A stretch of 49,151 nt of DNA, from the NCBI GenBank assembly GCA_028284945.1, contig JANQQJ010000043.1:1-49151 (forward strand). Direction: 5' to 3'. Positions 15,780-19,154 of the stretch are shown in pieces (the stretch's first letter is position 1; the number at the start of each line of letters is the position of its first letter). Both the position numbers and the translations under genes were made by a program. The notes below the pieces were generated by a model. The model did no database searches, was not told the DNA's origin, and saw nothing but the letters and a program-made list of their open reading frames with translations. The DNA is from Alphaproteobacteria bacterium. GTDB taxonomy: Bacteria > Pseudomonadota > Alphaproteobacteria > SMXS01.

Positions 15780-17837
15780 ATGAGTGGTTCCCGGGCTTTT
15801 CCCCGCCTCACAGATACTGTTCCGACATCGATCGTCGTTGTGGCAATTATTGCCACCTATCTGATCAGCATGCCGTTGCTTCAGGTCGGGCCCGCCTTCG
15901 CGGCTGGCTGGCTGCCCGCCAGCATCGGTCTGGCCAGCCTTGTCGTCGCTGGCCCGCAGATGTGGTTGGGCGTCCTTATCGGCACTTATTGCGCAGCCCG
16001 TATGGTCGATGTGCCGCTCGATGTGTCGCTGCTGATCGCCGTGTCCAATACGGCTGCTGCCCTGACGGGTAGACTCATCTTCCGAATGGCCGGATTTCGC
16101 ACGGCCTTGGACCGTTTTCGCGATGTCGTCACCCTGATGGCCGTCACCATTCCCACCTGCGGCCTGGTTTCTGCCCTGGGCGGCGTCGTTTCGCTGCAGA
16201 TCACCGGTCACCTCTCCGGCTCTGACTGGTTTCCGTCGTTCTTTCTTTGGTGGCAGGGGAGCACCATCAGCAGCTTCATTGTCGCGCCGCTGATTCTGAG
16301 CTGGATCGGCAAACCGGTCCCGCAGTTCGATATGGCAAAGGGGGCCGAACTGGCCGGGATGATGGCGCTGACCATCGCGCTTGGCCTTTTGTCCCTGACA
16401 CCGGGCATGCCCTATTCCGCCCAACTGGGCCTTGTAGGCTCGACCTTCCCCCTTATCGTGTGGGCGACACTGAGATTTGACCTGCGGGCAACCACGATTC
16501 TGGTTCTGCTGATTATCGGCACGGCCATGGCAGCGAGCAGCACAGGCCTGGGCCCGCTTCGGATTTTGCCGGTCAAGGAACAATGGTCGACACTGAGCGT
16601 ATTTGCATTCTTCTTTTCCTCCGCCGCGCTCATCCTGGGGGTCCTGACGGAAAAGCGGCGGCGGGTTGAATCCGCCCTGCGTGCCAGCCAGCAACGGCTG
16701 ACGGATATCGCCGACAGTGCGACAGACTTCTTCTGGGAGACCGACCGCAAACAACGGATTACCTTTGTCTCCGACCGGTTGCCCGCGTCTCTTGGAGGCA
16801 CGGCAACAGACCTCATAGGTCTTCGCCTGGACCAGCAAAAACTGGTTGATGTGCCGGAAATGGACCTTGAACAACTGGCCAGTCACATCGCCGACCACAA
16901 GCCGTTCCGGAACGTCCGCATCACCTTGATCTCGCGTGGTGGTTCCCGGATGGTTTTTGCACTTAGCGGTCAGCCGGTCGTTGGGCGCGACGGAGACTAC
17001 GCAGGCTATCGCGGCGCGGCTTCGGACATCACTGACCAGTTGCGCGGTGAAGATGAACTTCTCCAATCCCTTAAACTGGAAACCGTCAGCAAGCTGACAG
17101 GCGGCGTAGCCCACGAGTTCAACAATCTTCTGGCCGTGATCGTCGGCAATCTTGAGCTATCTATCGGCGCGCTATCGCTGGACAATAAGGCGCGCCCCAG
17201 CATGGAACGCGCACTCGGCGCCGCCGACCGCGCGGCCACATTGATCCACCGCCTGCTGGCCTATTCGCGCCGCCAGGCATTGCAACCCCGGGTGACCGAC
17301 GCCAATAATCTGATCGAGTCGATTGCCGATGTTCTGCAACATACAATCGATCCGTCGATTTCAATTGAACTTGAGCTGGAGCCGGATGCCTGGCCGCTTA
17401 AGGTTGATCCCGCACAGCTGGAAATGGCGATCATGAACCTGTCGCTGAACGCGGCTGAGGCCATGCCCGACGGCGGCGAACTGATCATCGAAACGTATAA
17501 TGCGGCCCTGGAGCATCCCGAGGAATCGTTCGATGGGCAGATCCTGCCAGGCGACTATTTGACCATCAATGTCCGCGATACTGGGACCGGCATCACCGCA
17601 GATGTTATCGATCGAATGTTTGAACCCTTCTTCACCACCAAAGAGGTTGGCGAAGGCAGCGGCCTGGGCCTGAGCATGGTACACGGCTTTGTTAATCAGT
17701 CCGGCGGGCATCTTGACGTTGCGAGCGCTGCCAACAAAGGCGCAACCATTACATTGTTGTTGCCGCGTTATGACGGGCCCGATCCAGCCACAGGGCAGCC
17801 GATGGAGACGCTTGACGTGGAAACCGAAACCACCTAA
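15780..17837 (+). CDS. Membrane sensor histidine kinase with MASE1 domain
   Basis: A 685-residue kinase. An N-terminal MASE1-type integral membrane sensor with about eight helices (roughly 15-290) is followed by a PAS domain (about 300-420; [17 protein letters not shown]). The phospho-acceptor motif [12 protein letters not shown] has His445. The HATPase domain (N box [15 protein letters not shown]1 DTGTGI, F box FEPFFTTK, G2 [13 protein letters not shown]) ends near 670. HEFNN marks the group of hybrid-like PAS kinases common in alphaproteobacteria. There is no receiver domain and no response regulator gene in the window, so it is an orphan kinase. The ATG at 15780 is right after a U tract. 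Confidence 0.9.
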
Positions 17838-17847
17838 CTAGAACCCA

Positions 17848-17903
17848 CGTGGTGATTTGGGCGACCAGCTTGCGGCCACGATAAACAAGCAGCTAAACGG
17901 TCG
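17848..17903 (+). promoter_or_regulatory. SAM-II riboswitch aptamer upstream of metZ
   Basis: P1 is CGTGG (17848-17852) with CCACG (17876-17880), followed on the 5' side by the conserved TGATTTG. The pseudoknot has P2a GCTTG (17868-17872) with CAAGC (17886-17890) and P2b CGACC (17862-17866) with GGTCG (17899-17903). The conserved AGCTAAA (17891-17897) lies between them. This is the SAM-II class, which binds S-adenosylmethionine and is typical of methionine genes in alphaproteobacteria. It begins 11 bases after the kinase stop and controls metZ. Confidence 0.95.
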
Positions 17904-17911
17904 GGAGCGAA

Positions 17912-17940
17912 CCCTGACCTTGCCGGTCGGGGTTTTTTTT
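17912..17940 (+). terminator. Riboswitch expression platform: intrinsic terminator with competing antiterminator
   Basis: CCCTGACC (17912-17919) pairs with GGTCGGGG (17925-17932), loop TTGCC, followed by eight T (17933-17940): a textbook intrinsic terminator. The same 5' arm can pair instead with GGTCGGG at 17899-17905 (seven pairs, loop 17906-17912). Bases 17899-17903 are the 3' strand of riboswitch P2b, so SAM binding should block the antiterminator and favour termination. The metZ GGAG follows directly at 17943-17946. Confidence 0.88.
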
Positions 17941-17954
17941 ATGGAGTGCGTGAA

Positions 17955-19154
17955 ATGACGGACAAGAAGGATCCATCAAGCTGGAGATTGGCCACCAAAC
18001 TTGTGCGTGGCGGCCTGATGCGGTCCGAATTCGGTGAAACAGCTGAGGCGATGTATCTGACCTCGGGCTTCGCTTATGACGCGGCTGAAACCGCGGCAGC
18101 CCGTTTCGCCGGCGAAGCAGACGGTTTCACCTATTCGCGTCTTTCAAACCCCACTGTCGCGATGTTCGAAGAGCGCATGGCGATCCTGGAAGATATGCCC
18201 GTGGCCAAAGCGACGGCGACGGGCATGGCGGCGGTCACTGCGGCCCTGATGTGCCAGTTGAAGGCCGGCGACCGGGTCGTGGCATCCAAGGCGCTATTCG
18301 GATCCTGCCGCTATGTCGTCGAGCAGATCATCCCGCGCTTCGGCATTGAGGTTGAACTGGTCCATGGCGGTGACAACGAGGCCTGGACAAAAGCCATCAC
18401 ATCCGGCACGACGACTGTATTCGTCGAAACACCGGCCAACCCGACACTCGATGTTGTCGATCTGACCCATGTGTGCGGGCTGGCGCATGAAGTCGGCGCG
18501 ACGGTCGTGGTCGATAACGTCTTTGCGACACCGCTTTTGCAGCGCCCGGCAGATTTTGGCGTGGACGTGGTGGTTTATTCCGCCACCAAGCACATCGACG
18601 GCCAGGGCCGCGTACTGGGCGGTTGTATTTTATGCAGCGAACAGTTTTTCGAGGATCACCTGAACCAATATATGCGTCACACGGGGCAGATCATCAGCCC
18701 GTTTAACGCCTGGGTCTTGGTAAAGGGATTGGAAACACTGGAACTGCGGCTGACCCGGATGTGCGAAAACGCGGCCAAAGTGGCAGATTTTTTGGCCGAT
18801 CACGGGGGCCTTGACCGGGTGCTCTACCCCGGACGGGCAGATCATCCACAACATGAACTTGCGATGCGGCAGATGTCGTCTGGCGGCACGGTCATCACGG
18901 TTGATGTCCCAGGCGGGCGCGATGCGGCATTCCGTTTGCTCAATACCCTTCAAATCATTGATATTTCAAACAATCTTGGCGACGCGAAGAGCCTGATGAC
19001 CCACCCGGCTAGTACAACCCACCGGGCCATTGAAGAAGCCGACCGGCTTGAGCTGGGCATCATCGAAGGGACGTTGCGCCTGTCCGTCGGGCTGGAAGAT
19101 CCTGACGACCTGATTGAAGATCTGGACCAGGCGCTGGGCCGTATAGGCGGTTAG
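17955..19154 (+). CDS. metZ: O-succinylhomoserine sulfhydrylase
   Basis: A 399-residue PLP enzyme of the Cys/Met metabolism family that makes homocysteine from O-succinylhomoserine and sulfide. Landmarks: YLTSGFAYD, YSRLSNPTV, the PLP lysine Lys212 in SATKHIDGQG, and the late segment SNNLGDAKSLMTHPASTTH. The family pattern (QFGETxEAxxLTxGFxYD) and the SAM-II riboswitch upstream favour MetZ over cystathionine gamma-synthase or lyase. ATG 17955 has GGAG 8 bases upstream; a GTG at 17946 would lie inside that site. Expression should fall when SAM is plentiful. Confidence 0.93.
   Translation: MTDKKDPSSWRLATKLVRGGLMRSEFGETAEAMYLTSGFAYDAAETAAARFAGEADGFTYSRLSNPTVAMFEERMAILEDMPVAKATATGMAAVTAALMCQLKAGDRVVASKALFGSCRYVVEQIIPRFGIEVELVHGGDNEAWTKAITSGTTTVFVETPANPTLDVVDLTHVCGLAHEVGATVVVDNVFATPLLQRPADFGVDVVVYSATKHIDGQGRVLGGCILCSEQFFEDHLNQYMRHTGQIISPFNAWVLVKGLETLELRLTRMCENAAKVADFLADHGGLDRVLYPGRADHPQHELAMRQMSSGGTVITVDVPGGRDAAFRLLNTLQIIDISNNLGDAKSLMTHPASTTHRAIEEADRLELGIIEGTLRLSVGLEDPDDLIEDLDQALGRIGG

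Follow-up and report, generated by a model that had tools for sequence, protein, structure and literature searches.

A SAM-II riboswitch in an alphaproteobacterial metZ leader whose pseudoknot strand is shared with a predicted antiterminator

We analyzed the leader of metZ, a gene of the methionine/SAM pathway, in a 49,151-nt stretch of DNA from contig JANQQJ010000043.1 of the alphaproteobacterial assembly GCA_028284945.1; this whole stretch is hereafter called the window. The closest relatives of metZ in the named collection encode proteins that are 79-80% identical, and they occur in metagenome-assembled genomes. The features of the locus are as follows.

17811-17839, plus strand: likely promoter of the alphaproteobacterial type, CTTGAC 17811-17816, 17-nt spacer, CTAACT 17834-17839 (from consensus matches in SAM-II leaders; the start site is deduced from it)
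17839-17916, plus strand: SAM-II (SAM_alpha, RF00521) aptamer match (Rfam, 68.3 bits against a gathering score of 36)
17848-17880, plus strand: aptamer helix P1, 17848-17853 with 17875-17880 (Rfam consensus structure; pairs present in the sequence)
17862-17903, plus strand: pseudoknot helix P2b, CGACC 17862-17866 with GGUCG 17899-17903, five pairs (present in the sequence; duplex -6.2 kcal/mol)
17868-17890, plus strand: pseudoknot helix P2a, GCUUG 17868-17872 with CAAGC 17886-17890 (pairs present in the sequence; duplex -4.4 kcal/mol)
17899-17919, plus strand: antiterminator hairpin, GGUCGGG 17899-17905 with CCUGACC 17913-17919, seven pairs including one G-U (-10.2 kcal/mol)
17909-17940, plus strand: intrinsic terminator, stem 17909-17919/17925-17935, T8 at 17933-17940 (found by scan; -17.6 kcal/mol)
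17924-17931, plus strand: CGGTCGGG, an exact repeat of 17898-17905 (read from the sequence)
17943-17946, plus strand: likely Shine-Dalgarno sequence GGAG for metZ, 8 nt 5' of the ATG (read from the sequence)
17955-19154, plus strand: metZ, O-succinylhomoserine sulfhydrylase, 399 aa, ATG at 17955 (TIGR01325, 548.8 bits against a cut-off of 510; PF01053)

The assignment of this leader to the SAM-II class, initially made by eye, was borne out by the Rfam covariance model (E = 2.4e-13). All three aptamer helices, namely the P1 hairpin and the P2a and P2b helices of the pseudoknot, are complete, and a single SAM-II copy was found in the genome. Judged by its sequence, we regard the aptamer as a genuine SAM-II riboswitch by class, for which SAM binding is predicted.

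For comparison, searches of 350 genomes together with a metZ search gave 138 SAM-II leaders. In these leaders, the best matches to CTTGAC-N16-18-CTATAT, the consensus of alphaproteobacterial housekeeping promoters, averaged 9.0 out of 12, compared with 6.9 in shuffled sequences, and they ended most often 10-17 nt 5' of the aptamer motif GTGATTT. All members of the family alignment have CTTGAC. This spacing agrees with the original description of the class, a passage of which places the SAM-II promoters just ahead of P1 (PMC1273637). Transcription would start near 17846, so that the terminated RNA would be about 95 nt long. Upstream lies a MASE1 histidine kinase gene (15780-17837), whose TAA stop codon (17835-17837) falls within the proposed -10 element (17834-17839).

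The intrinsic terminator lies between the aptamer and the gene, and the antiterminator overlaps a strand of the aptamer and one of the terminator: its 5' strand is common to P2b, and its 3' strand is common to the terminator. The core of the terminator pairs CCCUGACC (17912-17919) with GGUCGGGG (17925-17932) through eight pairs, one of which is U-G, and three further pairs extend the stem out to 17909/17935, giving 11 pairs in total. The original prediction had proposed that the 3' strand of P2b (17899-17903) is the start of a seven-pair antiterminator, and that this antiterminator engages the 5' arm of an eight-pair terminator followed by eight T. These pairings and the T8 run can all be read in the sequence at the positions given for them. 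Because CGGTCGGG is found at both 17898-17905 and 17924-17931, the P2b/antiterminator strand and the 3' arm of the terminator are copies that compete for one partner. The three helices had also been proposed to be mutually exclusive. This holds for the antiterminator, which excludes each of the other two; P2b and the terminator have no base in common and can coexist. Given that P2b is compatible with the terminator and that the antiterminator excludes both, this arrangement points to a SAM-OFF switch.

An alternative is that the aptamer is real but the terminator constitutive. The antiterminator would then simply result from a G-rich strand of the aptamer lying beside a C-rich terminator arm, and any effect of SAM would be exerted elsewhere or through RNA stability alone. 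Data from the single leader leave some room for this: 128 of 5000 mononucleotide shuffles of the terminator arm paired as strongly with the strand of the window, and of 100 terminator-like arms taken from this genome, 3 bound the shared strand equally well, these arms coming from genome stretches of about 400 kb in total (including the window) in which most control hairpins were weak and 13 were strong. In other words, the complementarity in the metZ leader alone is only moderately unlikely by chance. In addition, a passage on Sinorhizobium meliloti describes a metA aptamer followed by a terminator with no predicted SAM dependence (PMC9373788). The recurrence of the arrangement across the SAM-II class, however, places the shared strand beyond chance. 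A terminator was found within 125 nt in 109 of the 138 leaders, and 53 non-redundant, usable terminator-bearing leaders formed the comparative set. One proposed check was whether the 3' strand of P2b can still pair with the terminator arm in homologous leaders, and this pairing is retained: in 50 of the 53 leaders the antiterminator helix covers at least 3 nt of the P2b strand, and in 41 it has at least six pairs. The pairing of P2b itself is retained at its first four positions in 94-100% of them. The shared strand is nearly invariant, with GGTC in 43 of the 53 leaders; in the family alignment, all nine members carry GGTCGGG, the arms of the terminator are almost constant, and its loop is variable. 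Given that column pair counts are a weak test of such a strand, we preferred a swap test based on duplex energy. Strand and terminator arm from one and the same leader gave a mean duplex energy of -11.94 kcal/mol, compared with -10.74 kcal/mol for arms swapped between leaders (sd 0.27; 0 of 5000 permutations), and the 49 metZ leaders by themselves again gave 0 of 5000. Composition does not account for this result: arms shuffled within themselves gave a mean z of -0.4, compared with about -4.3 for the real arms. Unrelated upstream segments, used as a control, showed no own-versus-swapped effect. Under stricter redundancy filters the effect stayed at about 1.2 kcal/mol, and its significance fell to 19 of 5000 at n = 22 and 121 of 5000 at n = 12. 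A simple pair count hardly separates own from swapped arms (6.02 versus 5.88 of 7); with so little variation in the shared strand, the co-variation, though real, is modest. In several leaders, changes in the shared strand are matched in both partners. L053 has P2b CCGGTC/GACCGG and antiterminator GACCGGG/CCCGGTC, and the strands of L107 (CGCCGGG), L145 (GGCCGGG) and L023 (AGCCGGG) behave in the same way. With these data, we consider a constitutive terminator to be quite improbable.

We also considered the possibility that control is mainly translational, with either the hairpin, which ends about 8 bases 5' of the GGAG, or the pseudoknot itself restricting ribosome access to metZ. As the original prediction had noted, the T run (17933-17940) ends only 2 bases 5' of the GGAG, and the crystallised metX SAM-II riboswitch occludes a ribosome-binding site within the same P2 helix (PMC10907184). 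However, the GGAG of the window lies outside all three helices, and a T8 run is unnecessary for such control. Moreover, the distance from the terminator stem to the metZ start has a median of 47 nt, is at most 60 nt in 69 of 103 leaders, and rises to about 630 nt when a further gene lies in between. With so variable a distance, a hairpin close to the ribosome site is not a conserved feature, and mainly translational control seems very unlikely.

We folded the locus as a growing transcript, in a calculation that includes neither a pseudoknot energy nor a ligand and in which the antiterminator is complete by 17919. With the RNA extended to 17929-17930, the antiterminator had a probability of 1.00-0.95 when 17899-17903 was free, and the terminator one of 0.99-1.00 when the same bases were locked. 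Folding with and without the P2b constraint, which had been proposed as a check, separates the two outcomes at these lengths; from 17932 onward it does not, since the terminator prevails with the strand either free or locked. Across the 53 leaders, a model calculation of this kind showed a gap of more than 0.3 in only 15-24 leaders at any one partial-stem length. At equilibrium, the full-length terminator outcompetes the antiterminator whether or not the aptamer is locked; any switching therefore has to take place while the RNA is being made. The minimum-energy fold of the whole leader is always the terminator, and that of the leader ending at 17923 is the antiterminator. Given that minimum-energy folding always returns the terminator and cannot show the pseudoknot, we left it out of the evidence for switching. 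With free-energy z-scores of -1.5 and -0.4, neither stretch stands out, and thus stability by itself proves nothing.

We propose, with a probability of roughly 86%, that this SAM-II riboswitch shuts off metZ by transcription attenuation, the SAM dependence being predicted. Transcription would begin just 5' of P1. The growing RNA could form P2b once it reaches 17903, the antiterminator once it reaches 17919 and, from about 17931, the terminator. When SAM is bound, the pseudoknot would keep 17899-17903 in P2b and block the antiterminator, so that the terminator could form; if it is efficient in the host, the polymerase would halt at the U run and release the RNA of about 95 nt. When SAM is scarce, 17899-17905 would pair with 17913-17919, and the 5' arm of the terminator would stay occupied while the polymerase passes the U run, so that metZ would be transcribed. 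The outcome would be a race during transcription, not an equilibrium. A wider version of this proposal holds that the shared strand of 5-7 nt is a general output port of SAM-II, joining the pseudoknot to an expression platform (an antiterminator here, the ribosome-binding site in translational members), and that the terminated leader of about 95 nt acts as a small RNA. We regard this version as unlikely.

Parts of this picture are already known. According to passages of the 2005 description, intrinsic terminators follow many SAM-II RNAs (PMC1273637); these passages and others from a 2007 survey present SAM-II RNAs as OFF switches whose distal pseudoknot interfaces with the expression platform (PMC1273637, PMC2258182). 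In the survey passages, terminators are named as the prevailing platform of SAM-II RNAs in alpha- and beta-proteobacteria, and Barrick and Breaker state there that the mechanism was then without experimental establishment (PMC2258182). The leader in the window resembles SAM-II RNAs at large, as these passages present them, in its aptamer, its methionine-pathway gene and its downstream terminator; no specific SAM-II antiterminator is described in the passages of the two papers (PMC1273637, PMC2258182).

The closest published case is the metZ SAM-II leader of S. meliloti, which was predicted in 2022, according to passages of that report, to terminate upon SAM binding (PMC9373788). At high SAM, a terminated RNA of about 100 nt (RZ) goes up and metZ mRNA goes down; given that promoter activity and RNA stability also shift with the medium, the data in these passages do not isolate termination (PMC9373788). 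We found the same layout as in the window in the metZ leader of a pSymB record of this species (strain Ak57). The two leaders share the aptamer class, the gene and the order P2b, antiterminator, terminator and T run, and in S. meliloti, too, the P2b strand (GGCCGG) is complementary to the terminator arm (CCGGTC); the shared strand is GGCCGGG there and GGTCGGG in the window. Thus, terminators behind SAM-II aptamers (2005) and metZ attenuation (predicted in 2022) are already known, and the leader in the window adds another case. Any hint in the original prediction that this metZ leader is special has to be dropped: its layout is the usual one of SAM-II riboswitches that act on transcription, most of its relatives have it too, and the copy at 17848-17940 is ordinary. 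Among open-licence papers, we found the S. meliloti prediction and no class-wide test of a SAM-II antiterminator. What the present analysis usefully adds is the comparative sequence support for a shared strand across SAM-II leaders.

The nearest mechanistic analogue is the transcriptional preQ1-I riboswitch of Bacillus subtilis: transcription continues there unless the pseudoknot has folded with its ligand by the time the rival antiterminator hairpin forms (PMC3905878). It differs in aptamer, ligand and host group, and it is not homologous. The Sargasso Sea metX SAM-II riboswitch has the same aptamer and likewise uses the P2 helix as the switch output; P2 contains the ribosome-binding site there, which makes it translational, whereas the 3' strand of P2 starts the antiterminator here (PMC10907184). 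SAM-II is often presented through a translational example, yet most of the leaders that we collected carry terminators. The comparative result also gives a testable wiring, that is, bases whose change should weaken the antiterminator while sparing the aptamer and the terminator. The metZ locus brings these elements together in a short stretch: all three helices, a clear candidate for the promoter and a target gene whose identity is well supported.

Several other leaders depart from the common layout. L111 and L112 carry SAM-II-like leaders with an altered core, in which GCCGATTTG replaces GTGATTTG and the shared strand is GAGGTG; both lie 5' of a metZ-like gene and have no terminator by the criteria used. 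L038, L003, L031 and L036 have SAM-II leaders before a different gene (with no metZ-like match), also with no terminator by the criteria used. L038 retains a hairpin with the same arms (CCCGATC/GGTCGGG) and lacks the T run. Finally, L014 contains a gene for an FMN-binding protein of about 200 aa (1617-2228; PF04299, PaiB-like) between the riboswitch terminator and metZ. This gene is absent from the window. In L010 and L012, the distance to metZ is much smaller, and apparently only a short remnant is left. PF04299 was confirmed in L014 and L025, and a similar spacing is seen in L013, L016, L021 and L025, which belong to the same family. Given its position between the terminator and metZ, the FMN-binding protein gene would fall under SAM control in those relatives.
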